From: Bacteroidota bacterium
GTDB taxonomy: Bacteria; Bacteroidota; Bacteroidia; NS11-12g; UBA9320
NCBI GenBank assembly: GCA_947468275.1
Contig: CANIKO010000020.1
Coordinates: 1 to 64,000, forward strand
Direction of reading: 5' to 3'
DNA: 64,000 nucleotides
In this document: piece by piece, positions 9,196-64,000 of the stretch
Layout of the letters: the number at the start of each line of letters is the position of its first letter
Position numbering within the stretch: position 1 is the stretch's first letter
Made by a program: the position numbers and the translations under genes
The notes under the pieces: generated by a model
What the model was told of the DNA's origin: nothing
Databases searched by the model: none
The model's input: the letters and a program-made list of their open reading frames with translations, nothing else

Positions 9196-9741
9196 ATGAG
9201 TCGAAAATACAAATTTTACAATAAGGAGGGTTTGTACTTCATAAGTTTTGCTACCGTCTATTGGATTGATGTTTTTATAAGAGAGTTGTATTTTGAGGAA
9301 ATAGTTAAAAGTTTGGATTATTGCAGGAAAAATAAAGGAATGGAAATATACTGTTGGTGCATTATGCCAAGCCATATACATTTAATATTTCGGGCTAAGG
9401 ATTCAAATCCCGGTGATGTAATCAGAGATTTAAAAAAACATACATCAAAGCAGATTCAAGGATTAATACATAAAAACAGAGAAGAAAGCAGAAAGGAATG
9501 GATGCTTTGGATGATGGAAAGAGCTGGAAGTAAAAATAGTAATATTAAAAACAGACAATTTTGGCAGCAACATAATAAACCGATTGAACTATGGAGTAAT
9601 GAGGTTATTGATCAGAAGGTGGAATATATTCATAATAATCCGGTAGTTTCAGGATTTGTTTATGAACCTGCACATTGGAAATACAGCAGTGCAACCAATT
9701 ATGCTGGAGAAAAAGGAATTCTGGAAATTGATTTTGAATAA
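9196..9741 (+). CDS. REP-associated tyrosine transposase (RAYT), IS200/Y1 family
   Basis: The 181-residue protein is a Y1 HUH single-strand nuclease. The metal-binding HUH motif is H60-I61-H62 in CIMPSHIHLIFR, and the likely nucleophile is Y144 in YIHNNPV, a motif shared by RAYTs. Such enzymes bind and cut REP palindromes and are usually single-copy, domesticated genes. REP-like units on both sides, in opposite orientation, support this. Length and motifs are intact, so it is probably active or recently so. It sits between a lipoprotein gene and a broken DUF1566 gene. Confidence 0.88.
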   Translation: MSRKYKFYNKEGLYFISFATVYWIDVFIRELYFEEIVKSLDYCRKNKGMEIYCWCIMPSHIHLIFRAKDSNPGDVIRDLKKHTSKQIQGLIHKNREESRKEWMLWMMERAGSKNSNIKNRQFWQQHNKPIELWSNEVIDQKVEYIHNNPVVSGFVYEPAHWKYSSATNYAGEKGILEIDFE

Positions 9742-11683: not shown

Positions 11684-13246
11684 TTACTCCTTAATAAATT
11701 TGCTTTTATAAATCGTGTTGCCAGTTGTTATTAATACAGAATAAATACCTGAATGCAGATTTTTAACCTCCATCGACATTGTTTCTAAATTATAAGCTGT
11801 TCGAATAAAATCTTTATAATTCTTTTCTAAAACAACTCTTCCTAAATTATCAATAATTTGAACGGAAGCATCTTGAAAATTGAAACCTGTGAATAAAACG
11901 TCCTTCACCGGATTGGGATGAATCGTAAATTTTTGAATTGTTGGTTTAAAAATTCCAGCTTTTAGTAAACTGCTATCCTGTAATATTTTTTCATCTCCGG
12001 ATTGATAATACATGTAATAAAAATAGGTGAGCATCATTTCGCTGGTGGTGGCTTCGCCTAATGTTACCGCTTTAGGTGGATTGCTAGGCTGATTAGGATT
12101 ACTTGAAGTATTATCGTAGGTCACTATGGATTGAATTTTGGACCCGGCAGTTATTTTTTGAAGGTATTGAAATCTGTATTGACCTTGCCAATGAAAATCC
12201 CAATCGTTTATTTTTACTAAAGGAATAGTATCACCGCTGGCAGGTTTTGTAAATACTTTACTGCTTTTACCAATCAGATGCATGTGTGGCATAACTGATA
12301 AAAGAGTGACATCAATAGGAACCGTATAGCTTTGATAAAATGTTTTTACCTGATCTTTAGCTATTGCAAACGGGCCATTACTAATATTATAATGATTAAG
12401 AATTGGGGCAATAAAAACCTCACGCACCGATGGCTGTGTAGTAAAACGAATTATCAAAGATGTGCTGTCTATTTCGGTATTTGTTCCGGCAGGATAATGA
12501 ATTTGAAGAATGATTCTTGCATTTTTATACATTTTAACCCCTGTTCCGGTTGGGAAAATTACAGGCTCAGCTCCGGGAACATAAGGAGCAATAAGCACTG
12601 AATTATTTGAACCCGTACCTCCAAAATTCGTATACCCCGGCAATGGGTCGGCCTTGTCTAAATTATCAGTAGTAACTGTGGTATCTTGAAAAACCAATAC
12701 GTGATGAACAATTTTAGGATTACCCGGAATTATTTCTACAGCGGCAATATATCGGTTAGCAGGCAAATTGGTAGGGATTGAAAAACACCGGTAAATATCA
12801 CCGGTTGCAGCAGTTGAAGTATAAGTTGGAATTTTTACCTTCAAATCATAAGCTCCAATTTTTGAATTGTTATTATAAATTGGTTTTGCAGGGGCTTTAC
12901 TTTTATCTCCTTCAGGGGTTCCGTTACTTACCCAACTTACAATGGCATCAATTTCTGATTGTTTTAAAACCCGTTCGTCGGCATAGTGGCGATAATTTGG
13001 ATCGCCTGGCCAAGGTGGCATTGTTTTATTTTCAACTTGATATCTAATTGTATTTTTACCACTCACCGCATCTGCATAATCCACAAATGAACCCTTTCCT
13101 AGCCCACCTGGATGGTGGCATTTTGTACAATTGGCGTAAAATATAGGAGCTATTGTTTCAGACCAGTAAGGAGTTTGTGCCTTTGTGATACTAATTAAAC
13201 TAAGATAAATAAAAATAAAGGATAAAAAATATTTCATAATGTTCAT
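11684..13246 (-). CDS. Secreted cytochrome c/type II copper monooxygenase with T9SS sorting domain
   Basis: The 520-residue protein has a signal peptide (about 1-23), then a c-type heme site C40-x-x-C43-H44 with a likely axial M76 in MPPWP. From about residue 130 to 420 it has the peptidylglycine/dopamine monooxygenase-like copper domains, and all six expected ligands are visible: H181-H182 and H250 for one copper, H321-x-H323 and M404 or M405 for the other. It ends with a T9SS type A domain (from about 440). I infer an exported, cell-surface hydroxylase whose electrons pass through the attached heme. The substrate is unknown. A second possible ATG lies 3 codons in. Confidence 0.85.
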   Translation of the reverse strand: MNIMKYFLSFIFIYLSLISITKAQTPYWSETIAPIFYANCTKCHHPGGLGKGSFVDYADAVSGKNTIRYQVENKTMPPWPGDPNYRHYADERVLKQSEIDAIVSWVSNGTPEGDKSKAPAKPIYNNNSKIGAYDLKVKIPTYTSTAATGDIYRCFSIPTNLPANRYIAAVEIIPGNPKIVHHVLVFQDTTVTTDNLDKADPLPGYTNFGGTGSNNSVLIAPYVPGAEPVIFPTGTGVKMYKNARIILQIHYPAGTNTEIDSTSLIIRFTTQPSVREVFIAPILNHYNISNGPFAIAKDQVKTFYQSYTVPIDVTLLSVMPHMHLIGKSSKVFTKPASGDTIPLVKINDWDFHWQGQYRFQYLQKITAGSKIQSIVTYDNTSSNPNQPSNPPKAVTLGEATTSEMMLTYFYYMYYQSGDEKILQDSSLLKAGIFKPTIQKFTIHPNPVKDVLFTGFNFQDASVQIIDNLGRVVLEKNYKDFIRTAYNLETMSMEVKNLHSGIYSVLITTGNTIYKSKFIKE

Positions 13247-13320: not shown

Positions 13321-14190
13321 TTAACGTACAGTATAAATATGGTCTTTACCATTAATGGTTGCTTTGGCGATTCTGTCGCAAGCTTCATTATTAAATGGAT
13401 CATAATCGATAATTATTTCTTTGCCTGAAACTGTATTTTTTAAAGTCAGTTTTCCTTTTATAAAAGTTTGCGCACATCCAATATCTACTTTCTTTTTCAA
13501 AGGAACGGTAATGGATACAGTGAATGCTTCGCCTTTGCGGTTAGTGCCTGATGCACTGCCTGAAATTTCAAATACATCGCCCAATAATCCGGGACCAGCA
13601 TCGGTAATTTTAGTGATTGTTCTATTGGCCGCCCAGGTTACGGTTCCGTTATCGTTAGTTGCTTTTCCGTTAGTTACTACAATGGTCAATTGATTGGTTT
13701 GAGTTCTCGCTATAACTTTGGTTCCTGAAATTTGGGTCATTTGAGCGCCATTGCCTCCGTAAAATTTATCATTTTCACTAATTATAATAGTTAAAACTGA
13801 ACCTATACTCATGTATGGAGCTGATAATGTAAAATTAATTTTACCGGCCCTGTATCTTCCATCGCCACATAGTTTTCCAAATGGAGCGGCAGAACCCAAA
13901 GGACCAAAATCAATATTAAACTCCTTACCATCGCCATCGGTAAAAGAACTATCGGTGATTGTTACTAAAGCACCGCTTGGCAAAATATTGGTTCCGGCTT
14001 TTTTAAATCTACCATCACTGGATGCTACATCATCCCCTAAATCAAAGGCGGCGGTAAATTCATTCTCAGCAGTTGAGTTATCCTCTGCAGAGGTAATGGT
14101 TTCCAAGGCTTCAACCTTGTCTTTTCGGCATGAAAACATAAACATTGTAGCTACAATAGCCGCACCAAGAAATAATTTCGACTTTTTCAT
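13321..14190 (-). CDS. Lipoprotein, unknown function
   Basis: The 289-residue protein has a signal peptide ending in the lipobox MFSC (Cys at about 21) followed by RKD, so it is a lipoprotein. The mature part has a spacer rich in E, D, S and T and then a beta-rich domain with repeated polar strands (TLSAPYMSIGSVLTIII, VTWAANRTITKI). I do not recognise a family. A strong terminator follows it. It is the last gene before that terminator in the minus-strand run that starts with the sigma factor. Confidence 0.65.
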   Translation of the reverse strand: MKKSKLFLGAAIVATMFMFSCRKDKVEALETITSAEDNSTAENEFTAAFDLGDDVASSDGRFKKAGTNILPSGALVTITDSSFTDGDGKEFNIDFGPLGSAAPFGKLCGDGRYRAGKINFTLSAPYMSIGSVLTIIISENDKFYGGNGAQMTQISGTKVIARTQTNQLTIVVTNGKATNDNGTVTWAANRTITKITDAGPGLLGDVFEISGSASGTNRKGEAFTVSITVPLKKKVDIGCAQTFIKGKLTLKNTVSGKEIIIDYDPFNNEACDRIAKATINGKDHIYTVR

Positions 14191-33637: not shown

Positions 33638-35344
33638 ATGAAAAAAATTATATTCTCAATTTTAGCTACCCTTGTTGGTTATTGTTCCTATTCCCAAATC
33701 CCCAAGTTTGAATGGGCTAAAAATTTTGGTGGCATAGGCTTTAGCAAAGGTTATGCTGTTGCAGTTGATCCGTCGGGCAATGTTTTTACCACTGGCGTAT
33801 TTCAGGGAAAAGTAGATTTTGACCCAGATTCAAGTAAAACATACTATCTCTCGTCTGCGGGTTCAGATGATATTTTTGTATCCAAACTGGATCCCTCCGG
33901 AAAATTTTTATGGTGCAAAGCGTTTGGTGGCATAAGTAATGATATGGGCCAAGCAATTACAACAGATTCGAAAGGAAATGTATATGTTACAGGGTATTTT
34001 AGAAGTGATACTGTAGATTTCGATCCGGGAACTTTAAAATATGAATTGATAGCCATTGAACATGATATTTTTGTTTTAAAATTGAATCCAAACGGAGATT
34101 TGAAATGGGCCAAACAGATTGGCGGATTTGGATCTGACGCCGCTAACAGTATAGCTATGGATGCACAAGGCTTTATATATACCACCGGTATCTTTAGCAA
34201 TAAAGTAGATTTTGACCCCGCCCCGTCTACTAAATTTGAACTTTCAAATACTGGATATTATGACGCATTTATATTAAAACTCGACACATTAGGGAAATTT
34301 ATCTGGGCTAAAAAAATTGGAGGAGACAACGCAGATTATGGGTATTCAATTGTTTGCGATGTGAAAGGATTTATATATTATGCCGGTGTATTTCAGGGAA
34401 AGGCTGATTTAAATCCTGACCCGGCTGCCAGCAATTATTTAACATCTAAGGGAGTGTCTGATATTTTTATTTCAAAACTTAATCCAGCTGGAAACCTAAT
34501 TTGGTGCAAAAGCCTGAGAGGAACTAAAATTGAAGTTGTTAACTCGATAACCCTTGATGGAAAAGGAAATTTATATGCAACAGGTACTTATATGGATACT
34601 ACCAACTTCAATACGGATACAACTAAAATATATAATTTAGTTTCTAAAGGAATTGCTGATATTTTTATTTTAAAACTGGATACTGCAGGTAAATTTAAAT
34701 GGGCTCAATCATTAGGCAGCATTAATGATGATTTTGGCAATTCAATACAAACTGATAATTCGGGTAATGTTTACACCACAGGTTCTTTTCAGGGTACGGT
34801 CGATTTTGATCCTTCTACTTCTTCAGCATATAATTTAACTTCAGAAAACAGTTCTTACGATGTGTTTATCACAAAACTTGACCCAGTGGGAAATTTAATT
34901 GGGGCCATATCAATGGGAGGTGCAGCGCAAGACTTTAGTCAAGGCATTTTTATAAACAATAAAGGCAATATTTATACCACAGGAGGGTTTCAGAGTAAAG
35001 TTGATTTTGACCCCAGTAATGTTATTTACAACCTAAAAACTTTGGGGTATATGGATATTTTTGTTCAAAAAATGAGTGATGGGACAGCGGGGTTGGAAAC
35101 TTCTGTTAAAAGAAATGATATTACCATTTATCCAAATCCTACCAATGGAATTCTTAATATCCATAATACGGGTGGAAAAATTTTAAGACTTCAAATTTTA
35201 AATTCTTTAGGTCAGGTTGTAATGGAAAAACCATTTGAAAATAGCGCGATAATAAATATTGAGAATTTGAATTCGGGTATTTATACTATAAAACTTTCAG
35301 ATTTAAATACCACGATTGCGTGGCAAAGAATTATTAATCAATAA
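33638..35344 (+). CDS. SBBP-repeat beta-propeller protein with T9SS sorting domain
   Basis: The 568-residue protein has a signal peptide (about 1-19) and then seven to eight repeats of about 60 residues, each with an FGG...A..V.....GN.Y.TG.FQG.VDFDP core (e.g. GNVFTTGVFQGKVDFDP at about 49). These are SBBP-type repeats. The C-terminal 80 residues are a T9SS type A domain (YPNPTNGILNIHN...SGIYTIKL). It is a predicted surface or secreted protein. It lies between an ALDH7 gene and a remnant of that gene's 3' end, so it may have arrived by insertion. Confidence 0.82.
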   Translation: MKKIIFSILATLVGYCSYSQIPKFEWAKNFGGIGFSKGYAVAVDPSGNVFTTGVFQGKVDFDPDSSKTYYLSSAGSDDIFVSKLDPSGKFLWCKAFGGISNDMGQAITTDSKGNVYVTGYFRSDTVDFDPGTLKYELIAIEHDIFVLKLNPNGDLKWAKQIGGFGSDAANSIAMDAQGFIYTTGIFSNKVDFDPAPSTKFELSNTGYYDAFILKLDTLGKFIWAKKIGGDNADYGYSIVCDVKGFIYYAGVFQGKADLNPDPAASNYLTSKGVSDIFISKLNPAGNLIWCKSLRGTKIEVVNSITLDGKGNLYATGTYMDTTNFNTDTTKIYNLVSKGIADIFILKLDTAGKFKWAQSLGSINDDFGNSIQTDNSGNVYTTGSFQGTVDFDPSTSSAYNLTSENSSYDVFITKLDPVGNLIGAISMGGAAQDFSQGIFINNKGNIYTTGGFQSKVDFDPSNVIYNLKTLGYMDIFVQKMSDGTAGLETSVKRNDITIYPNPTNGILNIHNTGGKILRLQILNSLGQVVMEKPFENSAIINIENLNSGIYTIKLSDLNTTIAWQRIINQ

Positions 35345-48200: not shown

Positions 48201-49174
48201 CAAGCCCCAAGGCTGATTTCAGTTGGGATTTGGCGTGCAGTAGAACAGTTACAAAATTTCAATACACCGGCTCAAAACCCGTTCAATCGTTTCACTGGAA
48301 TTTTAACAACGAAAGCCCGTCATATCTCGAAAATCCCTCGTATTTATTTACCCTTGCTGGAACAAAAAAAATAAGTTTAGCCACCACTTCCAGCAACGGT
48401 TGCACCGATACCATAAAAAAAGATGTGGTGATAAAACCTCAATCAAAAGCTGATTTTACAGCAACTGATGTGTGTGAAACAGACTCGGCCGTTTTTATAA
48501 ATTTATCCAAAGATGCCACTGGCTACAACTGGAAATTTGGAGACGGCCAAAATTCAAAGCTTCAAAATCCAAAACACAAATTCCAAATCACAAGCACCAC
48601 CACTTACAACGTTACCCTTGTAGCCCAAGTCACCAACGGCTGTTCGGATTCCATAAGCAAAGCCATTACCATCAACAAAAATCCAAGTTCAGATTTTAGT
48701 TATACGTATAATGGCGTAAAAGTAGACCTCAAAATAACTAAAGCCGGAAACGCATACCAATGGAAATTTGGAAATACTGACAGTGCCAAAACCTCGGCTA
48801 CCACTTATTCTCACACCATCAAATCCTCTGACCAAACCAAGGTGTGCCTTACTGCTACGGATATTTCCGGATGCAACAGTCAAACCTGCAAAAATATATC
48901 GGTAGGAATTTTAAAGGTTTTAAAATCGGAAGGTTTTAAACTTTACCCAAATCCAAATTCAGGAAAATTTACCATCGAAATTGAAAATCCTTCAAAAGAT
49001 GTTTCGATTGAAATTTTTGACCTTTTGGGAAAGCTTGTAAAAACGGTAGAAACCAATTCTTCTAAATCAGTTTATGAAATTGATTTAAACTCAGTCGATG
49101 GAATGTATTGGGTGAGGGTAAAAAATGGAGATGCGGTGTGGAATCAGAAAGTGATTGTTTCTAAGTCAGAATAG
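45257..49174 (+). CDS. Giant secreted SBBP/PKD protein with T9SS sorting domain
   Basis: The 1305-residue protein has a signal peptide (about 10-30), an N-terminal domain of the DUF7948 kind (about 32-250, containing FRFFGNGEY and YDFILNPNA), SBBP-like repeats (about 280-760: VYATYLGGNATEYALDIAV, YSTYLGGSSDE, YSTYMGGSGIE), then four or five PKD-type domains (about 790-1210) and a T9SS type A domain (YPNPNSGKFTIEIEN, last 80). It should be secreted or anchored on the surface and could be an adhesin. The TTG at 45245 is inside the promoter, so the ATG at 45257 is chosen. Its last 240 bases resemble those of the gene at the right edge. Confidence 0.82.
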   Translation: MVVIVILKNNLSHLLLAVFLLLGSLNYTHGQAIASQLNCFQSNAGQWDDDILYQLNTASSAIIFYKNRISFALLKSTFPPSRQSENQPLGLQPILPVNEYLVWDLTFEGANNSVPLGKDSVPSVFRFFGNGEYLAKPIHTYKKIIYKDIYNNIDFVIYINDESNTIEYDFILNPNADESLIKMKYTGIEGLQINDDQSISIKTLWGDFRETKPVSNCQKDKKKLEVIYNLHEKGILGFAVDSERDKSQALTIDPVMLNWSSFLYGKAPWDVNRNDCPYTLITGVDLDAVGNTYAVGYTNTEFPKIAGSYDTGHIWVKSFYSGFYLKINQKGDSLYFFDYLGGKGVYCSTSFISINGKGEAAITGGASKGFPLTPGALDSIWGNGSFITTFNSRGDSLKFSTLFPGTVGRRALIILESGDVLTAGSSFGYIPMKSNSYQNTFQGGNYDAFVARIKSDGKSLVYATYLGGNATEYALDIAVNKKEEVYVVGATQSYNFPIVSNNSALNTFHGVVDGFLTKLDAKLSKVIFSNLIGGVKEEELQSIFLNNNEEIYVAGISNSTDFPVSLYPKAFQNKLAGKTDIVAMKFLPNGSNYRYSTYLGGSSDERYIYDGSHPVQIAATLKDEAIITGMSTSYDFPVTADAMQKTKKSKDSLSSCLTLSKLSPLGDKLIYSTYMGGSGIEILGASKVKRFKCIMNIALAGITRSRDYPTTKGVLYPKPPSDTLFGTNINYSVGFISKFSDTLKVEKPDFGNRIKTRCNDFLEILDGLNQGSYRRWSTGDSSQFLLVNKGGTYWVAATYGCDTIRDSITIINPINKANFTISDTAQCMAGNSFTFKETTQLKKTNRKESRWYFDDSTRIIDTIAKKSFTTPGIHFIKLVSQSTSDCQDSITKTVHVYQNSKPKFVINDSSQCLKNQSFNYTNTTADTGKISYQWDLGDQTYSSQKNITAKTYAKDSSYFIKLISITDNNCKDTATKIIAVKPSPKADFSWDLACSRTVTKFQYTGSKPVQSFHWNFNNESPSYLENPSYLFTLAGTKKISLATTSSNGCTDTIKKDVVIKPQSKADFTATDVCETDSAVFINLSKDATGYNWKFGDGQNSKLQNPKHKFQITSTTTYNVTLVAQVTNGCSDSISKAITINKNPSSDFSYTYNGVKVDLKITKAGNAYQWKFGNTDSAKTSATTYSHTIKSSDQTKVCLTATDISGCNSQTCKNISVGILKVLKSEGFKLYPNPNSGKFTIEIENPSKDVSIEIFDLLGKLVKTVETNSSKSVYEIDLNSVDGMYWVRVKNGDAVWNQKVIVSKSE

Positions 49175-57571: not shown

Positions 57572-58894
57572 ATGCTAAAAAAAACAATTCTTCTCCTTTC
57601 CATTTTCCAATTTCAATTTTCTAACAGCCAGACGCTTTATTTTCCGCCAACGACCAGCACAAATTGGGATACAACTTCTATGGAAAGCTTGGGCTGGTGC
57701 AGGGATAAAACTTTACCACTTTATACGTTTTTGGAAAACCGAAATTCAAAAGCCTTTATTGTTTTAAAGGACGGCAAGATTGTGGTTGAAAAGTATTTTG
57801 GTAAATTCACCAAAGACAGTTTGTGGTACTGGGCCTCTGCCGGAAAAACTCTCACATCGTTTGCAATTGGTATGGCCCAGGAAGATGGCTATTTAAAAAT
57901 AACAGATACATCTTCCAAATATTTGGGCAAAGGCTGGACTAAGGAATCACTGACCAAAGAAAATCTGATTACCATTCGCCACCAACTAACCATGACCACT
58001 GGATTGGATGATGGGATAACCGATAACCATTGCACTTGGGATAGTTGCTTTAAATACAAAGCCGATGCTGGAACTCGTTGGGCCTATCACAATGGTCCAT
58101 ACACCATGCTAGATAAAGTAATTGAAGCCAGTACCGGAAAAAATTTAAATACCTATTTGGCCCTCAGACTCAAAACCTTTACCGGAATGACAGGGCTTTT
58201 TGTAAAGATTGATTATGACAATGTATATTTTAGCAATGCAAGGAGTTTTGCACGTTTTGGGCTGTTAATGCTCAACAAAGGCGATTGGGATATAGTAAAA
58301 GTGATGAAAGACAAAACGTATTTTAACCAAATGATTACATCATCCCAAACTTTAAATAATTCATATGGCTATTTATGGTGGCTCAATGGTAAAACGAATT
58401 TTATGGTTCCGGGCTTGCAGCTAGTTTTGCCGGGTGCTTTAAACCCTAACTCTCCGACTGACATGTATTCGGCAATGGGTAAAAACGGGCAATTTTTAAA
58501 CGTAATTCCAAGTCAAAATATGGTAGTTATAAGAATGGGAAATGCACCCAATGGGAATGAGGTTCCTTTTTTAATGAACGATACCATTTTTATAAAACTA
58601 AATGCCGTAATGTGCAAGAATTCTGGGATATCCAATCCTAAAAACATAACAATTAATTTCAGAATTTATCCCAACCCTGCAAACGATTTTTTGATTATTG
58701 AAAATCCAACGAATGAAATAATAAAAAAAATAGTGTTGACTGATATTCAGGGAAAAGTAATTATGGATTTAAAAATTGACAATGCGGTTTCGATTTATAA
58801 CCTTGATATTTCTGATAAAAAAAGCGGCGTTTATTATTTAAAAGTATACGGTGAACAAGGTTTAGAATACCGACAATGTTTGCTTAAAAAATAA
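57572..58894 (+). CDS. Serine hydrolase (beta-lactamase family) with T9SS sorting domain
   Basis: The 440-residue protein has a signal peptide (about 1-19), then a class C beta-lactamase/esterase-like domain with the SxxK motif S89-A-G-K92 and the YxN-like YHN (about 170), the two catalytic motifs of the family. The domain spans about 45-345. The last 80 residues are a T9SS type A domain (IYPNPANDFLIIENP...KSGVYYLKVY). It is secreted and probably works as an esterase or peptidase on the surface; the substrate is unknown. Confidence 0.85.
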   Translation: MLKKTILLLSIFQFQFSNSQTLYFPPTTSTNWDTTSMESLGWCRDKTLPLYTFLENRNSKAFIVLKDGKIVVEKYFGKFTKDSLWYWASAGKTLTSFAIGMAQEDGYLKITDTSSKYLGKGWTKESLTKENLITIRHQLTMTTGLDDGITDNHCTWDSCFKYKADAGTRWAYHNGPYTMLDKVIEASTGKNLNTYLALRLKTFTGMTGLFVKIDYDNVYFSNARSFARFGLLMLNKGDWDIVKVMKDKTYFNQMITSSQTLNNSYGYLWWLNGKTNFMVPGLQLVLPGALNPNSPTDMYSAMGKNGQFLNVIPSQNMVVIRMGNAPNGNEVPFLMNDTIFIKLNAVMCKNSGISNPKNITINFRIYPNPANDFLIIENPTNEIIKKIVLTDIQGKVIMDLKIDNAVSIYNLDISDKKSGVYYLKVYGEQGLEYRQCLLKK

Positions 58895-61900: not shown

Positions 61901-62389
61901 GATTTGCCGGTTTTAAAATTAACCGCTGCAAATGATACCATTAAAGAAGGACAAAGTACCGTTATAAGGATATCAGGTGCCAAAAGTTATATTTGGACAC
62001 CCAACACTTGGCTACAAATATCTACCGACAGCATAATTGCTTCACCGCCTTTAACCACCAACTATAAAGTAACCGGAACCGATACCAACAAATGCAGCCA
62101 ATCGGATTATGTTTTGATTACCGTAAACAAAAAGCCTACCGAATCCATTGCTTCTTCATTGCAAAGTGAATATAAATTATATCCCAACCCAATTTCAAAC
62201 CATATAACAATTGAAAGCCCTGTAAATGAGGAGTTAACAGTTTATGCCATTAACGGAAGGGAAGTATTTAAAACCAAAACCTTTGAAAAGATGACTCGGT
62301 TGAATACAAGTTCATTTTTATCTGGAGTTTATATTTTTAGTCTAAAAACTGAAAACAGTATTCGATATTTCAGAATAATTAAGGAATAA
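58994..62389 (+). CDS. P-domain/CotH kinase-like protein with Ig-like repeats and T9SS sorting domain
   Basis: The 1131-residue protein has a signal peptide, then a proprotein convertase P-domain (about 40-160: FDADLNMFLIAPDKTVIELS...NPNGEWMLLVVD). Next is a CotH-type kinase (about 175-560) with SRGSTSQSFPKKPYGF, the DWVLNATYNDKSLMRDVL stretch and GPIWDFNLAWNN, as in spore-coat kinase CotH. Then come five or six Ig-like (PKD-like) repeats of the type W(S/L)PATGLD...TTYKV (about 590-1040), and a T9SS type A domain. I infer an exported protein kinase or glycosyl-type transferase on the surface. The domain order is uncommon. Confidence 0.85.
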   Translation: MQKFLLIVTLQFYAFFSFSQVFTGYGGRIRDDASQNFYKQTITGLASSTSTKFGVMGVTVNIKHQFDADLNMFLIAPDKTVIELSTGNGGNGKNYDNCVFTNNVNPKISNGKAPFNGSYKPEGSLGVINSGQNPNGEWMLLVVDTKRNKDTGSLTNWNIIFTTTPSQLEPFINSNLPLMLINTHGKGINDEPRIWSEMRIIDNTNTVNALGDSSKFFKYGITIESRGSTSQSFPKKPYGFTTVLPSLLDTNVSLLGLPEEHDWVLNATYNDKSLMRDVLTYELARRTGRYATRHRYIELFINGSYQGIYVLLEKVKRDKNRVDISKLGPNDTAGSALTGGYILKIDKTTGNNNGGFSSNGVYFQYDYPNGDNMAKEQVTYIQNFISTFETSLASSDFQNPTAGFRQYAAVSTFIDLSIMNEISKNVDGYRLSTYLFKEKDTKGGKLKMGPIWDFNLAWNNADYNNSSSPQGWEIDLSGGAPFWWKRFRADTTYVKDYYCRWNQLRQSTLSLYSINNFIDSNYKRLEEASYRNFDRWPVMGVYIWPNPSPLSYSMKEEVDSLKSWIKKRFEWMDGELSVDCKKVYTCSPRVALFAEKTSICKYQSVKLFADGVGASYKWSPSAGLNITTGREVIATPSATTTYKVVMQTKAGCKDSTFVTITVLPLPAKTITGNTSFCEGSYTSLTVSAGAKTYQWSPATGLDTAFGNKVKAKPSYNITYKVNITDSIGCKDSAYVLVKVNKKPVVTISAVKDSICRNDSTMLTASGALTYQWLQAFGLKTYTGNSVTVNPQNTTYTAIGTSNFGCLDTASYSVYDFPNAPLSIDATSTQLCMGAGTWLTAKKGSSYSWLKTTDFGGSNFTTVNVFPKVNTNYKVVGLNKYGCKDSADITVNVHSEISFTASGNTTICKGQQTALNLSGSYNYSWSPSTGLNSANSASVIASPLFTTKYQVIATLGGTCSDTIFVNITVNDLPVLKLTAANDTIKEGQSTVIRISGAKSYIWTPNTWLQISTDSIIASPPLTTNYKVTGTDTNKCSQSDYVLITVNKKPTESIASSLQSEYKLYPNPISNHITIESPVNEELTVYAINGREVFKTKTFEKMTRLNTSSFLSGVYIFSLKTENSIRYFRIIKE

Positions 62390-63716: not shown

Positions 63717-64000
63717 TTATTTTGAAATAAGTACCTTTTGATTATAAACTGCATCCCCATTTTTCACCCTTACCCAATACATTCCATCGGCCACATCCAA
63801 ATCTAAGCTATTCACCTTTTCTACCCGTTCCACTTTTTTAACCAAGGTACCCAAAAGGTTAAAAATTTCAATGGAAACATCTTTGGAACGATTTTCAATT
63901 TCGATGGTAAAACTTCCTGAGTTTGGATTTGGTTTAAAGTTTAAGTTTTTTTCCTTTCTGTTTAACTAAACTATTAATTCCAACCTTAAAATCATAAACC
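63717..64000 (-). pseudogene. C-terminal end of a T9SS type A sorting-domain protein (partial, frameshift)
   Basis: The last about 80 codons encode FKPNPNSGSFTIEIEN... and end DAVYNQKVLISK, a T9SS domain very like the end of the 1305-residue protein. The frame breaks: an in-frame TAG lies at about 63966-63968, while the next frame reads YDFKVGINSLVKQKG and joins if the T7 run at 63946-63952 (A7 on the coding strand) had one base less. The 5' part of the gene is outside the window. This could be a sequence error. Confidence 0.7.

Follow-up and report, generated by a model that had tools for sequence, protein, structure and literature searches.

A heme-c-fused PHM/DBH-type copper enzyme with a type IX sorting tail, and the occurrence of this fusion among bacterial relatives

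The window analysed here is a stretch of 64,000 nucleotides from a Bacteroidota bacterium (contig CANIKO010000020.1 of assembly GCA_947468275.1). The gene under study encodes, in this order, a predicted signal peptide, a cytochrome c domain, a copper core of the PHM/DBH type and a C-terminal sorting domain of the type IX secretion system (T9SS) (Table 1). The first-pass annotation, made from the sequence without database searches, had proposed a heme-c domain, a complete PHM/DBH-type copper core and a T9SS signal on one chain, and Pfam, NCBIfam and the family alignment agree with this. Translation places C40-T-K-C43-H44, M76, H181-H182, H250, H321-M-H323 and M404-M405 exactly where they had been named. 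The same type of head as the signal peptide is found in relatives, as judged by sequence comparison.

Table 1. Features of the heme-c/copper enzyme gene (window coordinates)
Feature	Position	Strand	Evidence
Whole gene, 520 aa, ATG start; heme-c/dicopper monooxygenase (predicted) with T9SS tail	11684..13246	-	ORF, Pfam, NCBIfam, purifying selection
Signal peptide, residues 1-23 (predicted cleavage)	13178..13246	-	hydrophobic stretch to ITKA, then QTP
Cytochrome c domain, residues 24-122	12881..13177	-	weak Pfam cytochrome c matches, domain-alone model
Heme-c attachment site C40-T-K-C43-H44	13115..13129	-	family alignment
M76 of the MPPW motif, likely distal heme ligand	13019..13021	-	family alignment
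PHM/DBH-type copper core, residues 130-418	11993..12859	-	family profile against PHM/DBH, VIA-align
H181, H182, CuH ligands, aligned with PHM H107, H108	12701..12706	-	profile, family alignment
H250, third CuH ligand, aligned with PHM H172	12497..12499	-	profile, family alignment
H321-M-H323, CuM ligands, aligned with PHM H242, H244	12278..12286	-	profile, family alignment
M404, CuM thioether ligand, aligned with PHM M314	12035..12037	-	family alignment
Type A T9SS C-terminal sorting domain, residues 442-520	11687..11923	-	TIGR04183 40.8 bits, PF18962, VIA-align

Taken by itself, the protein gives uneven domain scores. In a Pfam scan Por_Secre_tail (PF18962) was found above cut-off at residues 442-518 (E 4.5e-9), and TIGR04183 also scored above its own cut-off in NCBIfam. 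Cu2_monooxygen (residues 148-252, E 7.9e-5) fell below cut-off and Cu2_monoox_C (residues 313-416, E 1e-4) just below it, although in the genome search, where the cut-off is 23, the latter scored 24.7 bits. Cytochrome_CBB3 (33-81) and Cytochrom_C (35-108) were both weak and below cut-off, and no copper enzyme was matched when the PDB was searched with the single 520-aa sequence. Since the copper and cytochrome matches of the single sequence lie at or below the cut-offs and the PDB search was empty, the case presented here is built on the relatives. On the evidence of the sequences compared below, the gene is a real, conserved heme-c-fused PHM/DBH-type enzyme with a T9SS export signal.

No gene beside it names an electron donor or a substrate, as judged by a Pfam scan of eight neighbours and by comparison with the neighbourhoods of relatives. 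Upstream of the enzyme gene lies an ORF for a lipoprotein-like protein of 289 aa (13321-14190, minus strand) with no Pfam match. A homologue adjoins the enzyme, likewise upstream, in the three close relatives L033, L034 and L035, and homologues were found in 24 other genomes of the 395 searched; in three genomes with both a lipoprotein homologue and an enzyme match (G049, G122 and G166), the two genes are on different contigs. As a partner of the enzyme this lipoprotein was rejected, its adjacency being treated as local synteny. Neighbour clusters in other phyla were mostly limited to closely related genomes. A Y1 transposase of the IS200-like type is also present in the window (9196-9741, plus strand).

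To compare positions across the family, we used an alignment of the best ORF per locus, from which identical rows and copies of the query were dropped (n = 124 rows). C40, C43 and H44 are conserved in 117, 118 and 119 rows, respectively, and M76 is methionine in 103, with 14 gaps. The CxxCH motif and the distal axial ligand, probably M76, are nearly invariant, as expected of a c-type cytochrome. Modelled alone, the heme domain is helical (pLDDT 89.9). VIA-align ranked the heme-c domain of YhjA (Z 6.0) first among its structural neighbours, followed by that of hydrazine synthase alpha (Z 5.3); both values are weak, in the range graded as possibly a common arrangement, and Foldseek returned nothing at E < 0.001 with this model (best E 0.7). 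Because apo cytochrome models lack the packing heme, these weak fold matches are not strong evidence either way. For the heme domain, comparison with the orthologue L034 gave dN 0.115 and dS 1.86, indicating strong purifying selection. For heme-c assembly, the genome encodes two neighbouring PF01578 proteins and no ResB-type cytochrome c biogenesis protein; judging by the former pair, it is probably able to attach heme c.

The copper core is better conserved. H181, H182, H250, H321 and H323 are histidine in 122 of the 124 rows, the two exceptions (L029 and L032) being cytochrome-only fragments, and M404 is methionine in all 120 rows that reach this column (L052 and L068 stop earlier at a contig edge). 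This ligand conservation, read from the alignment, is beyond chance. M405 is variable (C 42, M 20, G 11 and L 11 of 124, with further residues in the rest), so that M404, not M405, is the likely CuM methionine. The six copper ligands originally proposed were therefore borne out for the five histidines and M404, and the M405 alternative was dropped. Loci L033-L089 were found partly with a peptide bait containing the HH pair; the invariance of this pair can therefore be taken as independent evidence only where the rows come from the genome searches. Strong purifying selection was found for the core (three close orthologues compared; dN 0.059, dS 1.21 against L034).

A profile of 56 family members matched rat PHM with an E of 5.5e-23 and human DBH with an E of 6.2e-15, and its alignment brings the four ligand motifs into register with PHM, where we take the CuM ligands to be H242, H244 and M314. 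The CuH ligands of PHM are H107, H108 and H172 according to an excerpt of PMC6123673. In the structure predicted for residues 24-520 (mean pLDDT 88.2), the core superposes on PHM (6ala) with Z 23.4 over 256 residues at 2.5 A and on DBH (4zel) with Z 23.1 over 268 residues at 2.7 A, as given by VIA-align. The next fold, PNGase F, scored a Z of about 8. Comparison of a predicted structure with PHM, the check suggested by the first-pass annotation, thus revealed the double jelly-roll of PHM, and fold and ligand register together imply, indirectly, that two separate copper sites would form, facing a solvent cleft.

The likeness to rat PHM, in the double jelly-roll and the six ligands in register, extends to the equivalents of Q170 and Q272, which are mostly kept (glutamine in 84 and 108 of the 124 rows, respectively). 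Unlike rat PHM, the query is bacterial, carries a heme-c domain in front and a T9SS tail behind, and has neither the core disulfides nor equivalents of R240 and N316. Its three cysteines are residues 40, 43 and 154, and since C154 is the only one in the core, the PHM disulfides cannot form there. Where PHM has R240 the query has M319 (T, F, A, M or L in most of the family), N316 is replaced by L406 (L or I in most rows) and Y318 corresponds to Y408 (F in 38 and Y in 23 of 124 rows); presumably R240, N316 and Y318 hold the peptide carboxylate in PHM. No paper text on the roles of R240, N316, Q170 and Q272 was found in the literature searched. Since the R240 and N316 equivalents are not conserved, the substrate class of PHM should not be carried over; the residues kept and lost suggest that the monooxygenase chemistry is probably retained and the peptide-glycine substrate probably not. 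As in human DBH, with which it shares the core fold, an accessory domain lies ahead of the copper core. In DBH this is a DOMON domain, as stated in an excerpt of PMC3197665, whereas the front domain of the query is heme-c and gave no DOMON match in Pfam.

The tail is of the TIGR04183 type, as in other type A T9SS cargo, with nothing unusual in the query; in the model it superposes on the C-terminal domains of mirolase (Z 9.6) and NucA (Z 9.2), as shown by VIA-align. It evolves faster than the core (dN 0.286, dS 1.15 against L034). At least 150 type A tails were found in the genome by TIGR04183 search, and SprA is present (2370 bits). T9SS export is thus ordinary for this organism, and enzymes with a tail make up a large group within Bacteroidota; the view that the cell surface was a rare place for such an oxidase could not be upheld. 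These features predict that the protein is exported to the surface by the type IX system. In a copper-core tree of 122 rows, made by a quick method and with many long branches flagged, 30 Bacteroidota rows are tailed versus 23 untailed and the state changes twice. Here tailed means at least 90 residues behind M404, tail length serving as a proxy for the sorting domain, and the Saprospiraceae row L052, cut at a contig edge, is omitted from the count. Por_Secre_tail was detected at E 0.001 in 14 of 60 family proteins (set A2). The window holds five further type A T9SS sorting domains, at 35126-35335, 48941-49159, 58664-58873 and 62177-62386 on the plus strand and at 63726-63932 on the minus strand.

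Homologues of the protein occur in 32 of 395 genomes, a set assigned to Bacteroidota from its named relatives, and a contig scan yielded 57 loci in Bacteroidota, Planctomycetota, Acidobacteriota, Verrucomicrobiota, Armatimonadota and Myxococcota. The frequency of the fusion was asked from the copper side, with Pfam PF03712 as query and the heme kept out of it. Among the 395 Bacteroidota genomes this gave 39 matches in 35 genomes, and a heme-c motif lies in the same ORF in 36 of the 39 proteins. Thirty of these matches (L091-L120) include 28 with C-x2-C-H or C-x4-C-H in the same ORF; L119, without the motif, is cut by a contig edge, and L111 (the same place as L166) shows no heme-c motif in any forward frame. 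Eight of the other nine (L002, L009, L017, L019, L027, the query, L163, L164 and L165) carry the motif, which is absent from L164. In 149 planctomycete genomes, PF03712 gave 63 matches in 44 genomes, and the motif was present in all 29 new loci examined of these 63. Seven genomes chosen for holding the family had it in 29 of 30 loci, the thirtieth (L138) having its heme part in an overlapping frame.

As a control, the motif was found in 9 of 339 unrelated ORFs of at least 400 aa at the same loci. Compared with this background, the proportions of 36/39, 29/29 and 29/30 indicate that heme and copper core have been kept together over several phyla. As judged by the motif, PF03712 proteins usually occur fused in the sampled Bacteroidota and Planctomycetota and in the seven family-selected genomes. 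Heme-free bacterial relatives are the two Bacteroidota proteins of the 39 (L111/L166 and L164) and one Nonomuraea protein; their existence means that the fold can be maintained without the heme. The Nonomuraea protein, at 23.9% identity, was all that a tblastn search of plasmid records returned. This ORF (L198, Nonomuraea gerenzanensis, 1090-2418) is heme-free and lipoprotein-like with PHM ligand motifs, and offers a natural contrast to the heme-fused class.

Several variants of the architecture were observed. An unusual heme-c motif, C-x4-C-H (often CATSGCH), is present in L092, L097, L098, L103, L110, L112, L115, L163 and L165, members of a separate Bacteroidota lipoprotein-like branch with the same copper core behind; since the front part has no match to the family cytochrome profile, it is the motif that points to a heme in this branch. 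The genome of the query encodes a second heme-c/copper enzyme (G000:C14:96690-97934; locus L002, 565-1935), 36% identical over the matched part. This copy is without a T9SS tail, has a lipobox-like head and lies directly downstream of a T9SS-tailed ORF. Some planctomycete loci, L040-L042 and L073 among them, have redoxin or AhpC/TSA fused ahead of the heme-c and copper domains; CxxC occurs in only some of these long front parts, and an AhpC/TSA or redoxin domain was found in 8 of 60 family proteins (set A2). TPR repeats follow the copper core in L053, L055 and L064 from Acidobacteriota and Verrucomicrobiota (domain scan on L053 and L064). The Nannocystis genomes G396 and G399, with ten and eight PF03712 matches, show a strong expansion.

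A heme module serving a copper monooxygenase has a parallel elsewhere. According to an excerpt of PMC8981238, the c-type cytochrome domain CjX183 can stand in for ascorbate as the reductant that sustains the activity of a bacterial LPMO, and reduction of LPMO by the c-type cytochrome gives less H2O2 than ascorbate. The query would resemble CjX183/Cbp2D in having a small c-type cytochrome module that serves a copper monooxygenase instead of ascorbate. Unlike the query, CjX183/Cbp2D acts, in that excerpt, on a separate protein, an LPMO with an unrelated copper site and another fold. Superposition of our heme-domain model on TtX183A, which is related to CjX183, gave a Z of 2.2, not a meaningful value. 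CjX183 is a precedent where the mechanism is concerned, but not where the heme-fused PHM/DBH family is.

On this basis, we propose that the signal peptide would take the protein across the inner membrane, that heme c would be attached on C40 and C43 with H44 and probably M76 as axial ligands, and that two coppers would be loaded, CuH by H181, H182 and H250 and CuM by H321, H323 and M404. The type IX system would then carry the enzyme to the cell surface, where the tail would be removed. The heme may be reduced from outside by a one-electron donor, be it a further cytochrome, a reduced quinone or a phenol, and would in turn reduce CuH and, via CuH, CuM, with no need for ascorbate. Reduced CuM would bind O2 and hydroxylate a C-H bond of the substrate, probably not a glycine-extended peptide. 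The data are consistent with the heme replacing ascorbate as electron donor. We estimate at roughly two in three the probability that the protein is a secreted, surface-exported two-copper monooxygenase that has the PHM/DBH fold and a built-in heme-c electron module, and is probably independent of ascorbate. A point against the heme-wired surface reading is that an enzyme at the surface has no obvious electron supply.

Three other accounts were weighed. Electrons could run the opposite way: the copper core would bind or oxidise a small molecule and the heme carry the electrons out, as in an oxidase or dehydrogenase, or the heme could be a redox sensor or peroxide scavenger. Direction is not readable from sequence, the weak neighbours of the heme domain include that of the cytochrome c peroxidase YhjA, and the AhpC/TSA or redoxin domains of set A2 would fit. 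We nevertheless consider this unlikely, as the His-x-His-Met set of CuM and the glutamine equivalent to PHM Q170 are typical of electron-accepting monooxygenases, and the query has one heme motif only, whereas cytochrome c peroxidases need a second heme.

An LPMO-like role, in which the surface enzyme would oxidise a polymer and the heme domain would be its internal activator, agrees with the often polymer-degrading nature of T9SS cargo. The activation of bacterial LPMOs by c-type cytochromes, as described in the excerpt of PMC8981238, also speaks for it. It appears quite improbable given that the Pfam scan detected neither a carbohydrate-binding module nor a CAZyme domain in the protein and named none in the eight neighbours covered, and that in other phyla the non-T9SS relatives are instead fused to TPR or redoxin domains. 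Fold, six ligands and the tyrosine at the Y318 position would also suit a true peptidylglycine alpha-hydroxylating enzyme amidating peptides outside the cell, with the heme an add-on. With M319 and L406 in place of R240 and N316 and no lyase partner named among the eight neighbouring proteins scanned, we give this very little weight. The reading of a heme-wired, surface-exported two-copper monooxygenase is therefore retained. Its wider form is more tentative, falling somewhat short of an even chance: PHM/DBH-type monooxygenases across bacterial phyla may be a heme-c-wired class in which the cytochrome replaces ascorbate, one Bacteroidota branch on the cell surface coupling outside donors to O2 activation on a non-peptide substrate.

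PHM and DBH are classical examples of ascorbate-dependent enzymes, and the two-copper core is chiefly familiar from the synthesis of hormones and adrenaline in animals. PHM is placed in eukaryotes by an overview table (PMC7435645) and by a second overview (PMC8812541), both seen in excerpt. In the literature searched, with most subscription journals outside its scope, no description of bacterial heme-fused PHM/DBH proteins was found. The pairing of heme and copper domains is visible to any Pfam scan, and the notable part is wider than one protein, namely that fused proteins prevail in the bacterial groups examined. In the groups sampled, the heme probably takes the place that vitamin C has in animals as the source of electrons. 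If true, this would represent a second way of feeding electrons to PHM/DBH two-copper chemistry, and would provide soluble one-chain models for electron delivery to CuH. It would also raise the question whether animal PHM and DBH descend from heme-fused ancestors, and the surface branch would constitute a new kind of extracellular oxidative enzyme.
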